Positions 532 through 48,749 of a stretch of DNA of 64,000 nucleotides are shown here, one piece after another (positions within the stretch are counted from its first letter, which is position 1; each line of letters starts with the position of its first letter). Below the pieces are notes generated by a model. The model was not told the origin of the DNA and ran no database searches. It worked only from the letters and a program-made list of their open reading frames with translations. The translations under genes were made by a program, and so were the position numbers. Source of the stretch: Corallococcus coralloides DSM 2259 (GTDB lineage Bacteria > Myxococcota > Myxococcia > Myxococcales > Myxococcaceae); the NCBI RefSeq assembly GCF_000255295.1, contig NC_017030.1, positions 1,302,001 through 1,366,000 on the forward strand, read 5' to 3'.

Positions 532-1923
532 CTACAGCAGGCCGTGCTCCTCCAGCTTGTTGTAGAGCGTGCGCCGGCTCACCCCGAGCAGCCGCGCCGC
601 CAGCGTGCGGTTGTCACCCGAGCGCTTCAGCGCGTCCACCAGCGCCTCCTTCTCCACGTCCTTGCGCCGTGACTCCAGCGTGACCGGGTCGGACGGTGAA
701 GGAGGCAGCGGCGCGGCGACGGGCGGTGGCGCGAGTCCCGGTTGGCGGGAGAGCTCGCGCGCCACGTCCTCGCCCGTGAGCACGGGCCCGTCGGAGAGCA
801 CCACCAGCCGCTCCAGGAAGTTCTGCAGCTGGCGCACGTTACCGGGCCACGGCTGGGCCTGGAGCGCTCGCAGTCCGTCCTCGCTCAGGGTGAAGGGAGG
901 GCGACCGTTGGTCCTGGCGTGCACGTCCAGGAAGTGGCGGGAGAGGGACGCGATGTCCTCCGGCCGCTCACGCAGTGTGGGCAGCCAGAGGGGCACCACG
1001 TTGAGCCGGTAGAAGAGGTCCTCGCGGAAGGTGCCCCGGCGCACGCCGTCCTCCAGCGACTGGTGCGTGGCCGCGATGAAGCGCACGTCGATCTTCACCG
1101 TCTGGGTTCCGCCCAGCCGTTCGAACTCGCGCTCCTGGAGCACGCGCAGGAGCTTCACCTGCACGGCGGGGGACACGTCGCCAATCTCGTCGAGGAACAG
1201 CGTGCCGCCGTGCGCCAGCTCCACGCGTCCGGGCTTGCGCGTGGCCGCGCCGGTGAAGGCGCCCTTTTCGTAGCCGAACAGCTCGCTCTCCAGGAGCGTG
1301 TCCGGGAGCGCCGCGCAGTGCAGCTTCACGAAGGGCCCTGTGCGCCGGGGACTGTTTTCGTGCAGGGCTCGCGCGGCCAGCTCCTTGCCCGTGCCGGACT
1401 CGCCCCTCAGCAGCACCGTGGCGGTGCCCTGGGCAGCCTTCACCAGCAGGGCCTTCACCTCCGTCATGGCGCGGCTCTGGCCCATGAGCAGGCTGTCCAG
1501 GCCGTCCGGCGCCTTGCCGGTGCCGCGCGTGGGCTCCGGGTCCTGGCTCGCGTGGAGCAGGGCCTTCTTCAGCGAGAAGAGGAGCTCCTCGCGGTCAAAG
1601 GGCTTGAGCACGAAGTCCGCCGCGCCCGCCTTCATCGCCTCCACCGCCAGCGGCACCGTGCCGTGCGCGGTCATCAGCAGCACGGGCACGTCCGGCCAGC
1701 CGCGTCCCACCTCCGCGAGCAGCTCCATGCCGCTCATGCCCGGCATGCGCACGTCGCTCAGCACCACGTCGATGGGACGGCGCGCGAGCAGGGCCAGGGC
1801 GTCCTTCGCGTTCGAGGCCGGATGCGGGGTGAGGCCCGCCTGGGTGAGCAGCGCGCCCAGCACCTTGAGCAGCGCGGGATCATCGTCGACCACCAGGACG
1901 TGGCCCTTCAGTGCTTCGCTCAC
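532..1923 (-). CDS. NtrC-family sigma-54 response regulator
   Basis: 463 aa from a GTG whose bases overlap the kinase stop (GTGA). A longer reading upstream only reuses kinase sequence. Domains in order: receiver (residues 8-125; acidic pocket DDD at 13-15, phospho-acceptor Asp57 in LSDVRMP, Lys107), AAA+ sigma-54 interaction domain (Walker A GESGTGKE, intact GAFTGA loop, Walker [20 protein letters not shown]), and a C-terminal Fis-type helix-turn-helix ending in [15 protein letters not shown]. When phosphorylated, such proteins bind upstream activating sites and open sigma-54 promoters. It is translationally coupled to the adjacent histidine kinase, which is its obvious partner. Target genes are unknown; the sigma-54-like element near 11230 in this window is one candidate among many. 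Confidence 0.93.
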
Positions 1924-10133: not shown

Positions 10134-11129
10134 ATGGCCACCCTCGTCATCGAGTCCACCCGCTCCGGCTTCGTCGAATCCCTCCACACCGTGTCCGTCG
10201 CGGTGGTGAGCGCGGAGGGCACGCGCGTCGCGTACGCGGGCGACCCGGAGCGCGTCACCTTCTGGCGCTCGGCGGCGAAGCCCTTCCAGTCGCTGCCCAT
10301 GGTCCAGGACGGGGCCGCGGACCGCTACGGCTTCGGCCCGCGCGAGCTGGCGCTCTCGTGCGCGTCCCACTCCAGCGAGCCCGTGCACCGCGCCCTCGCC
10401 ATGCAGATGCTGAGCGCTTCCGGCTGCGAGGAGCGCCACCTCGCGTGCGGCCCGCACCCGCCGCTGTCGCCCGCGGTCGCGGAGGAGGCGCTCAAGGCGG
10501 GCGTGGTGCTCACGCCCCGGTGGAACAACTGCTCCGGCAAGCACGCGGGGATGCTCGCGCTGGCGAGGCACCACGGCTGGGACGTCCACGGCTACGCCAG
10601 CGACGGCCACCCGGTGCAGGAGCGCATCCAGGAGGAAATCGCGAAGTGGACGGGCCTGCCGAGTGACGCGCTGGTGAAGGCCGTGGACGGCTGCCTCGCC
10701 GTCTGCTTCGGCCTGCCGCTCAGCGCCATGGCCACCGCGTGGGCCCGCTTCGGCGTCTCGGAAGCGCCCGCCGCGCGCCGCCTGCGGGAGGCCATGCTCG
10801 CGCACCCGGAGCTGGTCGCGGGCAGGGGCCGCGCGTGCACGGACCTGATGACCGCCTTCGGGGGCGAGGCCGTGGTGAAGATTGGCGCGGAGGGCGTCTA
10901 CTGCGCCGCGCTGCCCCGGGCCCGCCTGGGCGTGGCCGTCAAGGTGGAGGACGGCGACGCCCGCTGCGCCGCGCCCGCGCTCCTCGGCGTCCTGCGCCTC
11001 CTCGCGGAAGCGCAGGGCCTGTCCCTGCCCATGACGGGCCTGGAGCACCACGCGGAGCCGCGCATCCTCAACACCCGGAACGAAGCCGTGGGCTCCCTGC
11101 GCGCGGCCGGGACCCTCGCGTTCGTCTGA
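10134..11129 (+). CDS. Asparaginase II-family (AnsA/thermolabile type) protein
   Basis: 331 aa from ATG at 10134. The sequence matches the Asparaginase_II family (PF06089), cytoplasmic enzymes unrelated to the classic type I/II bacterial asparaginases. Recognisable stretches are FWRSAAKPFQSLP, LALSCASHSSEP, NNCSGKHAGMLAL, VDGCLAVCFGLPLSAMA and GRACTDLMTAFGGEAVVKIGAEGVYCAA. The family is placed with serine beta-lactamase-like hydrolases; the SAAKPFQ Ser-x-x-Lys is the likely catalytic pair. It would hydrolyse L-asparagine to aspartate and ammonia. It is monocistronic: the next plus-strand element is the putative small RNA, after a hairpin that could terminate this gene. Confidence 0.9.
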   Translation: MATLVIESTRSGFVESLHTVSVAVVSAEGTRVAYAGDPERVTFWRSAAKPFQSLPMVQDGAADRYGFGPRELALSCASHSSEPVHRALAMQMLSASGCEERHLACGPHPPLSPAVAEEALKAGVVLTPRWNNCSGKHAGMLALARHHGWDVHGYASDGHPVQERIQEEIAKWTGLPSDALVKAVDGCLAVCFGLPLSAMATAWARFGVSEAPAARRLREAMLAHPELVAGRGRACTDLMTAFGGEAVVKIGAEGVYCAALPRARLGVAVKVEDGDARCAAPALLGVLRLLAEAQGLSLPMTGLEHHAEPRILNTRNEAVGSLRAAGTLAFV

Positions 11130-11134
11130 GGCCC

Positions 11135-11190
11135 GCTGTAGCGCGGAAGGTCACACGCGCCGGGAACCCTGTAACCGGCTCCGCTACAGC
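11135..11190 (+). terminator. Imperfect long hairpin after the asparaginase gene
   Basis: GCTGTAGCG (11135-11143) pairs perfectly with CGCTACAGC (11182-11190), with a smaller CCGG...CCGG pairing inside. It begins 6 bp past the asparaginase stop. No T run follows, so termination is likely but not certain. Confidence 0.45.
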
Positions 11191-11228
11191 CGCGCCCGCG
11201 TCCCTTGGAACTCCGAGGACTCAGCGGC

Positions 11229-11245
11229 AGGCACGCGGACTGCAA
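11229..11245 (+). promoter_or_regulatory. Sigma-54-type -24/-12 promoter element
   Basis: AGGCACGCGGACTGCAA matches the sigma-54 consensus TGGCACG-N4-TTGCA, with the invariant GG at 11230-11231 and GC at 11242-11243 exactly 10 nt apart. Mismatches are A for the first T and C for the first T of TTGC. It points rightward into a hairpin-rich region that has no ORF, so it probably drives a small RNA starting near 11254. Confidence 0.6.
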
Positions 11246-11253
11246 TGTCCGCC

Positions 11254-11364
11254 AGGCACACGGCGGGACTCGCGAGGTCCTGACGCCAAGGGGGAAAGCC
11301 TCGCGAGTCCAGATGGGGTCGGGTGGGCGAGCCTTCGCGTTCGCTGCCCGACCCCCTCTTGTTT
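11254..11364 (+). ncRNA. Candidate sigma-54-dependent small RNA (~110 nt)
   Basis: The start is placed about 12 nt after the -12 GC. The RNA would carry a perfect 12-bp stem, GGACTCGCGAGG (11266-11277) with CCTCGCGAGTCC (11299-11310), and a 21-nt loop TCC-TGACGCCAAGGGGGAAAG. A strong terminator hairpin at 11315-11355 ending in a T-rich tail follows. No coding frame explains the symmetry. Its size, sigma-54 promoter and hairpin layout recall Pxr, the developmental sRNA of Myxococcus xanthus; that identity is a guess from memory and not checked. The downstream gene (prmA) is on the other strand, so this is not simply its leader. Confidence 0.55.
11315..11364 (+). terminator. Terminator of the candidate sRNA
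   Basis: GGGGTCGGG (11315-11323) pairs with CCCGACCCC (11347-11355), extended by GCGA/TCGC inside, and is followed by CTCTTGTTT. It abuts the stop of prmA on the opposite strand and may serve both directions. Confidence 0.7.
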
Positions 11365-12231
11365 CTAGCGCTTCAAGTCGATGCGCACCCACTCGCCCTG
11401 CTGCGCGCCCTCCAGCACGGTGCACCCCAGGTTGCGGTACGCGGCCTCCACGTCCGCGCGCTGGTGCGCGAGCACGCCGGCCAGCACCAGCCGGTCCTTC
11501 GCCTTGGGCACGATGAGGGGCGCCAGCTCAATCAGCGTGTTCGCCAGGATGTTCGCGAGCACCAGGTCGAAGGTGCCGGGCACTTCCGTCAGCTCGCGCC
11601 CGGAGATGTCCAGGTCGGGCGTCTGGTTGTCCGCGCAGTTCTCCTGGGCCAGCTCCACGGAGGTGGGGTCGTTGTCGGTGCCCACCACGTGGCCCGCGCC
11701 CAGCTTCTTCGCCGCGATGGCGAGCACGCCCGTGCCGGTGCCCACGTCCAGGACGCTCGCGCCCGGGTGCGTGGACATGAAGTCATCCACGGCCGCAAGG
11801 CACAGCGACGTGGTGGGGTGGTCCCCCGTGCCGAAGGCCATCTTCGGCTCGATGACGAGCTTCACCTTGTCCGCCGGCGCGTTCGCCACGTCCCAGGGCG
11901 GGCCCACCCACAGGCGGCCCACCTGCACGGACTTGATGAGCGACTTCCACTCGTTGCTCCAGTCCTGCTGGGGCTGCTCGTCCAGGGACAGGCGCGCGGT
12001 GGGGTGGCTCTCCGCCACCGCGTCGCGGGCTTCTTCCGCGCTCTCGCGGTCCTCGAAGTAGGCGACGACGATGGACTCGCCCTTCACGGGGGCGCGCACG
12101 CCCGGCATGGTGGGCGTCTCCGCGTCGCGGACCTCCAGGCCCAGGGCGCCGGCCTCATGGAGCAGGTCCTGGAGGATTTCGGAGGCCTCCTCCGCGATAT
12201 CCACGGTGAGTGACAAGTAGGTCTGGGACAT
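11365..12231 (-). CDS. prmA: Ribosomal protein L11 methyltransferase PrmA
   Basis: 288 aa, the usual family length, from ATG at 12231. PrmA uses SAM to trimethylate lysines and the N terminus of ribosomal protein L11. The N-terminal ~100 residues are the substrate-recognition domain, ending in DWSNEWKSLIKSVQVG. Next comes the signature PKMAFGTGDHPTTSLCL. The Rossmann methyltransferase motif I is VLDVGTGTGVLAIAAKKLGA, motif II contains GTDNDP, and FDLVLANILANTLIELAP is the NPPY-like motif IV. It stands alone between the sRNA region and the M16 peptidase gene, which runs in the same direction 74 bp upstream. Confidence 0.94.
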   Translation of the reverse strand: MSQTYLSLTVDIAEEASEILQDLLHEAGALGLEVRDAETPTMPGVRAPVKGESIVVAYFEDRESAEEARDAVAESHPTARLSLDEQPQQDWSNEWKSLIKSVQVGRLWVGPPWDVANAPADKVKLVIEPKMAFGTGDHPTTSLCLAAVDDFMSTHPGASVLDVGTGTGVLAIAAKKLGAGHVVGTDNDPTSVELAQENCADNQTPDLDISGRELTEVPGTFDLVLANILANTLIELAPLIVPKAKDRLVLAGVLAHQRADVEAAYRNLGCTVLEGAQQGEWVRIDLKR

Positions 12232-12305: not shown

Positions 12306-14909
12306 TCAGGGCCCGACGATGGCCATGGCCATGCGGTCGAAGTCGATGACCCGGCGGGCCACCTCCTGCACGTCCTCCGCCGTCACCTTCGCCACGTGCT
12401 CGGAGTAGTGCAGGAAGTTGTCCAGCCCGATGCCGTAGCAGGTGTCCAGCGCCAGCAGCGTCGCGCGGGCGCTGTTGCGCTGCAGGTCGATTTCATACGC
12501 CCCGATGATGTGCTGCTTGGCGCGCTCCAGCTCCGCGGCCGGAATCGGCTCGTCGCGGATCCGCTGCAGCTCGCGGCGCATGCCCTCCACCGCCGCGTCT
12601 ACCTTCTCCGGGCTCGTGCCCATGTAGACGGCGAAGTAGCCGGGCTCCAACCCGTCCATGGAGAAGCTGCTCACGCTGTAGGCCATGGAGCGCTTGTCGC
12701 GCAGCTCGATGAAGAGGCGCCCGCCCTGGCCCGACAGCACCGTGGACAGCACGTCCAGCACCACCCGCCACGAGTCACTCATCCGCGCCGCCTGGAAGCC
12801 CAGCACCAGGTGCGTCTGCGCGCGCGCGAGCACCTGCTTCTCCGTGCGCGGCGCGGACGGAGGCGCTTCCGGCCGCACCTGCTTCGGGGCCACCGCGCCG
12901 CCGCGCGACTTTCCGAAGTACTCGTTCGCCAGCGCCCGCACCTGATCCACGTCCACGTCGCCCACCACGCTGAGCGTCATCTGCGATGGGTCCATGTGCG
13001 CGCGGTGGTACGCGCGCAACTGCTCGGGCCCCAGCGCCTCCACGGACGCCTTCTCGCCCAGGAGCGACATCCGGTACGGGTGCTCCTGGTAGAGCGTGCG
13101 CGAGAACAGCTCGAACGCCACGCTGGACGGCTTGTCCTCGCGGGTGAGGATGTCCTGGAGCAGCAGCGCGCGCTCCCGGGCCACCTCCTCCTCGCGGAAG
13201 GCGGGGTTGAGCAGCACGTCCGCGAACAGCCGGAAGCCGGGCTCGAAGTAGCGCGACAGGAAGTCCGCCTTCAGGCTGATGGAGTTGCGGCCGCCCTGGC
13301 CGCTGATGTTGCTCACGTACAGGTCCCCCAGCTGGGTGACGTCATCCGCGCTGAGCGTGGTGGTGCCCTTGGTGAGGGTGCGGCTGAGCAGCGTGGTGAT
13401 GCCGTTGTCCTCGGGGGTCTCGTAGCGCGCGCCGCCAATGAAGGCCGCGCGCATGGAGAACAGCGGCACGTGCGGCTCCACGCGGATGATGAGCGTGGCG
13501 CCGGAGGGCAGCTTCTCCTGCACCACCTCCGAACGCGCGGACGCGATGGCGCTGCGGCCCGGACGCGGCGGGGCGTCCGGGGGAGGCTGCTTCGCGGCGC
13601 GCTCCGGGGGCGTGAGGCCGGGGCTCTTCGCCGCCTCATCCAGCGCGGCGTGCACGTGGGCCTCCGTCAGCTCCGCGGCGGGCGGCACCAGCGCGGTGAC
13701 GACGGCGTGCTCCAGCCGCAGGTACTTCTGGGCCACGCGGCGCAGGTCCTCCGGCTTCAGGTTGCGGATGTCCTCCAGGTAGCGGGCCTCCGACTCCAGG
13801 CCACCGGGGGACGTCTGGTACGAGCCCAGGTTGCGCGCGGTGCCCTGCACCGTCTCCTTGCGGTAGACGGACTCCGCCTCCACCACCGCCTGCACCGTGC
13901 GCAGCTCGTCCAGGGGCACGGTCGTGGTGCGCATCGCCTCCAGCACGCGCGCCGTCTGCGTGAGCGCCTTCTGCACCTGCGTGGGCGGCAGCGTCAGCGA
14001 CACGGAGAAGATGCCCGGGTCCTTGGGCGTGTACGCGGACGCGTGCACGTCGTTGACCAGGTGCTGGCGGCGCTTCACCTCGCGCACCAGCCACGACGAA
14101 TTGCCCTGGCCGGCGATCATCGCCAGCACGTCCAGCGCGGGCACGTCCGGGTGCTCCAATTCCGGGATGGCGAAGGCCAGGTGCAGGTAGACCTCCTTCA
14201 CGTCCTCCGTCTGGACGAGCACGCGGCGGCCCGTGGGCGGCGGGTCGCGCGGACGCTCCACCGGACCCGCGTAGGGGCGGCCCCAGTCACCACCGAAGAT
14301 CTCCTCCACCCACTGGCGCAGCTCCGCCTCGTTCAGGTCGCCCGCGACGGACAGCACCAGGTTCTTGGGCGTGTAGTGCCGGTGGTAGAACTCCAGCACC
14401 TTCTCGCGGGTGAAGCTGCGCACGCTCTCCTCGGTGCCGATGACGGGCAGCCGGTAGGGGTGCGTCTGGAACGCGGTGGTGAACAGCCCGCGCGACGCGC
14501 GGCGCGACGGCGAGTCGTAGCTGCGCTTGATCTCCTCGCACACCACCTCGATTTCGCGCGCCAGCTCGTCCTTGTCGAACGCGGAGCGGCGCACCGCGTC
14601 CCCCAGGATGTCCAGGCCCGTGCGGGCGTACTGGCTGGCGATGACGATGTGGTAGACGGTCTGGTCGAAGGACGTCCAGGCGTTGATTTCGCCGCCGTGC
14701 GCCTCGATGTCCCGGGCGATTTCACCGGGCCCCCGGCGCTCCGTGCCCTTGAAGAGCATGTGCTCGTGCAGGTGGGCGAGTCCGGCTTGGTCCGGCCTTT
14801 CGTCCGCGCTGCCGGCCTTGACCCAGACCTGGAAGGCCGCGACCTTGGCGGCGTGCTGCTCCTCGAAGACGACGGTGAGCCCGTTGGGCAGGGTGTAGCG
14901 GATGGCCAT
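12306..14909 (-). CDS. M16-family zinc metallopeptidase, two fused M16 units
   Basis: 867 aa from ATG at 14909. The N-terminal half has the inverted zinc site HLHEH (HxxEH, residues 46-50, His46, Glu49, His50) and a downstream acidic ligand region IEVVCEEIKRSYDSP. The second half (from about residue 445) repeats the M16 fold, with VPLFSMRAAFIGGARYETPEDNGITTLLSRTL in place of the metal site, so it lacks HxxEH and is the usual inactive partner. Such fusions form the closed peptide-digesting chamber of pitrilysin/processing-peptidase relatives and cut small or unfolded peptides. No signal peptide is visible, so a cytoplasmic location is likely. A Pro/Ala-rich hinge around residues 425-445 links the halves. 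Confidence 0.9.
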   Translation of the reverse strand: MAIRYTLPNGLTVVFEEQHAAKVAAFQVWVKAGSADERPDQAGLAHLHEHMLFKGTERRGPGEIARDIEAHGGEINAWTSFDQTVYHIVIASQYARTGLDILGDAVRRSAFDKDELAREIEVVCEEIKRSYDSPSRRASRGLFTTAFQTHPYRLPVIGTEESVRSFTREKVLEFYHRHYTPKNLVLSVAGDLNEAELRQWVEEIFGGDWGRPYAGPVERPRDPPPTGRRVLVQTEDVKEVYLHLAFAIPELEHPDVPALDVLAMIAGQGNSSWLVREVKRRQHLVNDVHASAYTPKDPGIFSVSLTLPPTQVQKALTQTARVLEAMRTTTVPLDELRTVQAVVEAESVYRKETVQGTARNLGSYQTSPGGLESEARYLEDIRNLKPEDLRRVAQKYLRLEHAVVTALVPPAAELTEAHVHAALDEAAKSPGLTPPERAAKQPPPDAPPRPGRSAIASARSEVVQEKLPSGATLIIRVEPHVPLFSMRAAFIGGARYETPEDNGITTLLSRTLTKGTTTLSADDVTQLGDLYVSNISGQGGRNSISLKADFLSRYFEPGFRLFADVLLNPAFREEEVARERALLLQDILTREDKPSSVAFELFSRTLYQEHPYRMSLLGEKASVEALGPEQLRAYHRAHMDPSQMTLSVVGDVDVDQVRALANEYFGKSRGGAVAPKQVRPEAPPSAPRTEKQVLARAQTHLVLGFQAARMSDSWRVVLDVLSTVLSGQGGRLFIELRDKRSMAYSVSSFSMDGLEPGYFAVYMGTSPEKVDAAVEGMRRELQRIRDEPIPAAELERAKQHIIGAYEIDLQRNSARATLLALDTCYGIGLDNFLHYSEHVAKVTAEDVQEVARRVIDFDRMAMAIVGP

Positions 14910-47391: not shown

Positions 47392-48749
47392 GCACAGCCC
47401 GAATCCTCGTCGTCGATGATGATCCGCATGCGCGGGACCTGCTCCAGCGCCTGCTGGGCGTGCTGGGGCCGGTGACGCAGGCGCCGGACCCCAAGGGCGC
47501 GGCGGAGCGGATGGGCGAGCAGTCCTTCGACCTGGTGCTCACGGACATGGCCATGCCCGACCCGGGCGACGGCCTGAAGGTGCTCCAGACGGTGAAGTCG
47601 AACCTGCCGGACACGCCGGTGATTGTGGTGACGGCGTTCGGCAACATCGAGGGCGCGCTGGACAGCATCCAGCTGGGCGCCTTCGACTACCTGTCCAAGC
47701 CGTTCGACGTGGACGCCATCATGCGGGTGGCGAAGCGCGCGCTGGAGCAGAAGCGGCTGGTGGAGGAGAACCGCACGCTGCGCAAGCAGGTGGAGCGCAC
47801 GTCGCTGGTGGGCCGCAGCCAGGCGCTGCTGGAGGTCTACAAGCAGGTGGCGCGCGCGGCGACCAGCAACGTGCCGGTGCTGATTACGGGTGAGACGGGC
47901 ACGGGCAAGGAGATGGTGGCGCGAGCGCTGCACAAGCGCTCGGCGCGCACGTCCGGGCCGTTCATCCCGGTGGACTGCGGCGCCATCACCGAGTCGCTGA
48001 TGGAGAGCGAGCTGTTCGGCCACGCGAAGGGCAGCTTCACGGGGGCGTCGGGGGCGCGGCGCGGCCTGTTCGAGGAGGCCAACGGCGGCACGCTGTTCCT
48101 GGATGAGATTGGCGACGTGGGGATGAAGGTCCAGTCGCAGCTCCTGCGCGTGCTCCAGGAAGGCGAGATCCGCCGCGTGGGCGAGAGCGTCCCGGTGAAG
48201 GTGGACGTGCGGGTGTTGGCGGCGACGAACAAGGACTTGAAGGCGCGGGTGGCGGAGGGGCTGTTCCGCGAGGACCTGTTGTACCGGCTGGACGTGGTGC
48301 ACCTGCACCTGCCGCCCTTGCGCGAGCGGCGCGAGGACATCCCGGCGCTGGTGGAGCACTTCGCGTCGCTGCACGCGAGGGGCGGGGTGCGGCCGGTGGT
48401 GACGGCGGACGCGATGGCGCGGCTCACGGTGTACGACTGGCCGGGCAACGTGCGGCAGTTGGAGAACGTGATGGCGCGGGCGCTCGCGCTGAACGTGACG
48501 GGCGTGCTGGGGCCGCCGGACTTCCCGGAGCCCATCGGTGACGCGCCCAAGCGGCTGACGGGGCTCGCGGGGGACCTGCCGAGCCTCGCGGAGCTGTCCA
48601 GGCGCTACGCGGCGCACGTGCTCCAGCATGTGGGGGGCAACAAGAGCGAAGCGGCGCGCCTGCTGGGCGTGGACCGCAAGACGCTCTACAAGCTCCTGGA
48701 GGCGCCGGAGACGCCCGAAGGGATTCCGCCCGCGGAGGGGCGGAGCTGA
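47388..48749 (+). CDS. NtrC-family response regulator with variant GSFTGA loop
   Basis: 453 aa. Receiver: DDD at 10-12, Asp53 in VLTDMAMPDPGDG, then FDYLSKPF. The AAA+ domain has Walker A GETGTGKE, Walker [11 protein letters not shown] and [11 protein letters not shown]. The sigma-54-contact loop reads GSFTGA instead of GAFTGA (Ala to Ser), a change found in some enhancer-binding proteins; activity is likely but less certain. C-terminal Fis helix-turn-helix: GGNKSEAARLLGVDRKTLYKLLE. Works with the preceding histidine kinase. No sigma-54 site was found near its own start. Confidence 0.93.
   Translation: MSTARILVVDDDPHARDLLQRLLGVLGPVTQAPDPKGAAERMGEQSFDLVLTDMAMPDPGDGLKVLQTVKSNLPDTPVIVVTAFGNIEGALDSIQLGAFDYLSKPFDVDAIMRVAKRALEQKRLVEENRTLRKQVERTSLVGRSQALLEVYKQVARAATSNVPVLITGETGTGKEMVARALHKRSARTSGPFIPVDCGAITESLMESELFGHAKGSFTGASGARRGLFEEANGGTLFLDEIGDVGMKVQSQLLRVLQEGEIRRVGESVPVKVDVRVLAATNKDLKARVAEGLFREDLLYRLDVVHLHLPPLRERREDIPALVEHFASLHARGGVRPVVTADAMARLTVYDWPGNVRQLENVMARALALNVTGVLGPPDFPEPIGDAPKRLTGLAGDLPSLAELSRRYAAHVLQHVGGNKSEAARLLGVDRKTLYKLLEAPETPEGIPPAEGRS

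Follow-up and report, generated by a model that had tools for sequence, protein, structure and literature searches.

A predicted Corallococcus-specific small RNA under a conserved sigma-54 promoter beside prmA

Positions 11255–11364 on the plus strand of the Corallococcus coralloides DSM 2259 DNA analysed here probably encode a trans-acting small RNA of ~110 nt, specific to Corallococcus, that would be governed by sigma-54 and an enhancer-binding protein and would tune the mRNAs of co-regulated envelope proteins. The window is a 64,000-nucleotide stretch (bases 1302001–1366000) of the single-contig, 10,080,619-bp genome. Genome comparison shows conservation of the predicted promoter, its upstream dyads and the predicted RNA, their restriction to one genus, and a promoter architecture in common with other putative sigma-54 promoters. 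The locus is the 235-bp intergenic gap at 11130–11364, between an asparaginase II gene ending at 11129 on the plus strand (PF06089, 3.6e-112) and prmA at 11365–12231 on the minus strand (PF06325, 6.8e-65). Downstream of the RNA, both prmA and the next gene (12306–14909) are on the minus strand, with no plus-strand gene just 3′. A sequence-only reading had listed a −24/−12 site, a 12-bp stem and a terminator-like hairpin in this gap, and all were found where it had placed them, though taken in one sequence alone such features are only moderately surprising.

The sigma-54 promoter, CAGGCACGCGGACTGCA, is on the plus strand at 11228–11244, with GG at 11230–31 and GC at 11242–43, and departs from consensus mainly at two Ts, the one preceding GG and one of those in TTGC. 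The pattern GGCACGNNNNYTGCW occurs once in the window, compared with 0.59 times in shuffles of the same composition, such that the site taken alone is within chance expectation. Its significance comes from conservation, because the promoter is recognisable by alignment in 16 of 16 Corallococcus genomes with a nearly invariant −24/−12 element, and identity in the −24 block is 98% in the per-site profile compared with 45–55% immediately upstream. The earlier proposal of a correctly spaced sigma-54 promoter is borne out by this conservation. In the 16-genome alignment the spacer after the −12 element is unconserved and conservation is abruptly restored at 11256 with GCACACGG, which begins 12–13 nt past the −12 GC in most genomes. 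This restart fits the position of a sigma-54 transcript start, and we infer that the 5′ end of the RNA is at 11254–11256. Along the whole gap, the dyads, promoter and RNA form conserved islands of mostly 82–99% identity, while the DNA in between is at 45–69%.

With blastn, each of the 15 other Corallococcus genomes matched the gap at 75–94% identity, and other genera gave just short, chance-like matches; among the named records matching the RNA, eight were from Corallococcus and the ninth was a Myxococcaceae metagenome bin. From 14 distinct sequences we built a covariance model, which at a cut-off of E 0.01 recovered a single copy per genome in Corallococcus (16 of 16) and no copy among 80 genomes from 25 other genera of Myxococcaceae, and the predicted RNA is Corallococcus-specific at the sensitivity of this model. 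Beside prmA in 14 genomes of seven other genera the RNA was absent, as was the asparaginase gene within 1.5 kb (tblastn). Two Myxococcus-like genomes (L172 and L173) carry an unrelated CG-rich hairpin, for example GGCTCGCGCG...CGCGCGAGCC, between prmA and its convergent gene. No Rfam family reached its gathering score in the window and the gap gave chance-level matches only, and no similar phage DNA was found, leaving a phage origin of the locus unsupported.

The predicted RNA, for which conservation, the covariance model and the fold are the evidence, would end near the prmA stop codon. Its 110-nt sequence has a folding energy of −63.9 kcal/mol, with z = −4.8 relative to dinucleotide shuffles, and contains two plus-strand stem-loops. 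Stem-loop 1 (11266–11310) consists of a perfect 12-bp stem (11266–11277/11299–11310) around a 21-nt loop (11278–11298), and the terminator-like stem-loop 2 (11315–11366) of a hairpin at 11315–11355 followed by CTCTTGTTTCT, ending at the prmA stop codon. An anticipated terminator with a T-rich end was thus present as a hairpin with a U-rich tail, but the tail is weak rather than a canonical run, and a simple terminator scanner did not flag it. The paired fraction of both helices (98–99%) far exceeded slid controls. In stem 1, 98.2% of counted stem cells were paired across the 14 distinct sequences, yet one pair that is C-G here is a G-G mismatch in 9 of the 14, and a structural constraint on this stem is not proven given that mismatch in most relatives and the absence of compensatory changes. 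Stem 2 (99.1% paired, loop length variable) has a both-sided change at one pair and several one-sided changes.

The strongest constraint on the RNA is on sequence, at AGGGGGAAMGCCTCGCGAGTCCA, which takes in the loop's 3′ half together with the 3′ arm. Within a 99% identity block, the plus-strand segment AGGGGGAAAGCCTCGCGAGTCC (11289–11310) is nearly invariant among the 14 distinct sequences, with just two changes, an A/C and a G/A. The loop had been put forward as the active part of the RNA; its first half (TGACGCCA) differs between species, whereas AGGGGGAAMGCC and the 3′ arm of the stem do not vary. Constraint on the sequence of this strand points to a binding function, and segment 11289–11310 would be the best candidate for pairing or protein binding, over a purely structural role.

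Upstream of the promoter are two putative activator dyads of the form TGTARCS-N5-SGYYACA, 33 bp apart, which were absent from the sequence-only reading. Dyad 1 (TGTAGCG-CGGAA-GGTCACA, 11137–11155, plus strand) and dyad 2 (TGTAACC-GGCTC-CGCTACA, 11170–11188, plus strand, 14 bp after dyad 1) resolve a 21-nt inverted repeat with arms at 11135–11155 and 11170–11190. The promoter lies 42 bp past dyad 2, and the pair occupies 42–93 bp upstream of the promoter GG. Dyad 1 is conserved in the 15 genomes covering the region (the window included), its spacing to dyad 2 is always 33–34 bp, and it is a 0-mismatch member of a genome-wide pair motif. As predicted sites, the conserved pair provides the enhancer sites expected of a sigma-54-dependent small RNA.

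A genome search for dyad pairs with a period of 33 bp returned 5 places at ≤2 mismatches and 7 at ≤3, against three for the reversed control, and the pair was present in 9 of 10 other genomes, 1–6 times each (control none or one). A sigma-54-like site lay within 110 bp of 17 of 22 dyad pairs from 10 genomes compared with 6.8% of random places, and a strong site near 11 of 22 compared with 0.9%, although binomial values for the 22 are overstated because five are the RNA promoter and its orthologues and others are mutually orthologous; leaving out the RNA's own promoter and orthologues, 12 of 17 pairs had such a site. The remaining four dyad pairs in the C. coralloides genome all have a sigma-54-like site. 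By inspection, the open reading frames downstream of dyad pairs, here and in relatives, encode mostly lipoproteins or other signal-peptide or secreted proteins, and only the 11228–11244 promoter was seen to lead into a non-coding RNA.

Two genera share a gene cluster comprising an FHA-domain enhancer-binding protein, a Ser/Thr kinase, a lipoprotein, a dyad pair and a large kinase (L217:5111–13682 and L206:4211–12714). Since a dyad pair lies within this conserved neighbourhood, the FHA protein (L217:5198–6610) is a candidate activator, by association only, and the cluster is possibly the regulon's own control unit. Two known types of site were rejected as the identity of the dyads: those of Nla28, whose half-sites CT(C/G)CG(C/G)AG do not match (PMC7910581), and those of NmpR, whose sequences do not match (PMC11841059). 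The window holds two more sigma-54 activator domains, at 988–1488 (minus strand, ~10 kb from the RNA) and 47805–48305 (plus strand).

Transcription of the locus, the identity of its activator, the targets of the RNA and the way it would pair with them are all inferred. The two dyads would be bound by dimers of an NtrC-class enhancer-binding protein, which would contact sigma-54 polymerase at 11228–11244; transcription would begin near 11255, and the second hairpin would terminate it at the prmA stop codon. The same activator, judged by its sites, would drive the lipoprotein and secreted-protein genes, and the RNA would be expressed along with the lipoprotein set because the activator sites are shared. 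It would then most likely pair through its loop and 3′ arm (AGGGGGAAAGCCUCGCGAGUCC; invariant AGGGGGAAAGCC) with envelope-protein mRNAs, tuning their translation, and most likely belongs, as the non-coding member, to a regulon of envelope proteins under an enhancer-binding protein. M. xanthus has no hfq homologue (PMC5684412).

Counts of seed complements, for two candidate seeds in three genomes, were about equal to controls; the loop seed complement was somewhat above control in the C. coralloides genome only, and the search found no target there. A 218-aa secreted-protein gene under a dyad pair in two other species (L213:7373–8026 and L214:8213–8866) contains a 15-base complement to the invariant segment: the loop seed complement is in codons 7–11 and the full 15-bp match covers codons 7–12 in both genomes, at −25.8 kcal/mol, which ~0.1% of random windows reach. 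A search of ~360 kb surrounding the syntenic position in the C. coralloides genome did not find this gene, and pairing with the start regions of other co-regulated genes was mostly ordinary, the few low p-values falling on the stem arm. The 15-bp match is a lead towards a feed-forward loop, not a result. A more elaborate reading would cast the RNA as the repressor in an incoherent feed-forward loop within an envelope-lipoprotein sigma-54 regulon whose FHA-domain activator is under Ser/Thr kinases. The activator is hinted at by the neighbourhood kept in two genera, and we regard the reading as a whole as doubtful; if true, a eukaryote-like kinase cascade would end in a bacterial small RNA.

Among explanations that link the locus to Pxr, identity with that developmental RNA, suggested earlier from the layout, did not survive comparison. 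Membership was set at a covariance match of >80 bits with RF01812, and 11120–11400 gave no match at E up to 10. The real Pxr of the same genome (L087:2309–2415), which served as a positive control, scored 109.9 bits and is 84 kb away. It was found, as a hairpin RNA, by scanning the DNA around enhancer-binding-protein genes for sigma-54 sites, and at 1.2296 Mb it has a gene for a response regulator of 484 aa on one side and one for an NADH dehydrogenase subunit on the other, in agreement with the published setting of pxr between the NtrC-like pxrR/nla19 and an NADH dehydrogenase gene (PMC5568312). The prmA-side RNA shares with Pxr an upstream sigma-54 promoter (11228–11244, in 16 genomes) and is flanked instead by asparaginase II and prmA. 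That it is Pxr or a paralogue relocated beside prmA is very improbable: the two share a sigma-54 promoter, hairpins and a length of ~110 nt, and tandem Pxr paralogues are known in relatives (blastn; PMC5568312), but RF01812 misses the locus while detecting the real Pxr, the repeats upstream of Pxr (TTTCAGGGATG type) are unlike the dyads, and blastn with Pxr lists the prmA-side locus in no genome. The Rfam model, blastn, synteny and an intact Pxr at its own locus rule out Pxr identity, and the likeness is confined to layout. What stands of the original proposal is a sigma-54-dependent regulatory RNA with an enhancer-binding protein as activator, for which the comparative support is strong: phylogenetic footprinting, conservation throughout the genus and dyads in common with other sigma-54-like promoters. 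Multiple neighbouring Pxr copies were seen in relatives by blastn (four in G022, L127; five in G026, L129), G018 (L128) gave four matches spread over three contigs, and three tandem paralogues are published for Cystobacter (PMC5568312). We also considered whether the RNA acts as a sponge, its GGGGGAA loop kissing the ultraconserved UUCCCCC loop of Pxr stem-loop 1. Seven contiguous complementary bases, near invariance of both loops and the presence of both RNAs in 16 of 16 Corallococcus genomes speak for this, yet the interaction energy with accessibility, −6.1 kcal/mol, is reached in 7% of random windows when paired with this RNA and in 4% when paired with Pxr, and we think the sponge improbable.

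Other readings dispense with a trans-acting RNA. The tandem hairpins could be a cis element only, ending asparaginase transcription and insulating convergent prmA without a separate RNA gene, given that the second hairpin sits exactly where two genes converge and that the two Myxococcus-like genomes have an unrelated hairpin beside prmA; this would leave the conserved sigma-54 promoter, paired dyads, invariant loop and 5′ end unexplained, and is unlikely, if less so than the sponge. Somewhat less probable than the cis element is an RNA acting in cis, antisense to the 3′ region of prmA: the genes are convergent and any prmA read-through would be complementary to the RNA along its full length, but constraint is greatest in the loop and stem 1 rather than in a prmA-overlapping stretch, and other genera lack the unit next to prmA. 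As improbable as a relocated Pxr is a transcript encoding a short protein, for which one plus-strand frame is open through stem 1 by inspection; that frame has no ATG, GTG or TTG inside the transcript, and the existing short ORFs shift frame or lose their start between species. A small ORF was rejected, with no reading frame and start conserved in the RNA.

The preferred reading, a trans-acting small RNA co-regulated with envelope proteins, would describe a new RNA family that is ordinary in kind, namely a conserved Corallococcus-specific sigma-54 small-RNA gene, whose putative tie to an envelope-protein regulon is unexpected and testable. A single-genus RNA on an enhancer motif shared with lipoprotein genes would be a testable case of a new small RNA recruited into an existing regulon, and a candidate regulon of an enhancer-binding protein is marked out by the paired-dyad motif itself. 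In enterobacteria, sigma-E RNAs such as MicA and RybB are envelope-tuning small RNAs under the same regulator as envelope genes. Like them, the prmA-side RNA is a short hairpin RNA, with expression alongside envelope proteins expected; they use sigma-E, whereas it would use sigma-54 with an enhancer-binding protein and its function is predicted from sequence. Promoters of the M. xanthus NmpR regulon resemble its promoter in having two dyads with a 5-bp centre, 14–15 bp apart, and a sigma-54 promoter downstream (PMC11841059), but NmpR binds GCGCA-N5-TGCGC and the dyads here read TGTRRCS-N5-SGYYACA. In the literature we searched, no sigma-54-dependent small RNA of myxobacteria other than Pxr is well studied, and the prmA-side RNA would be a second of this kind. 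Both are myxobacterial, ~110 nt long and preceded by a sigma-54 promoter, with a strong first stem-loop and a terminator-like last stem; the Pxr loop is C-rich and that of the prmA-side RNA G-rich, locus, sequence and upstream repeats also differ, and Pxr occurs in 18 genera of the family (blastn) whereas the prmA-side RNA occurs only in Corallococcus (covariance model).
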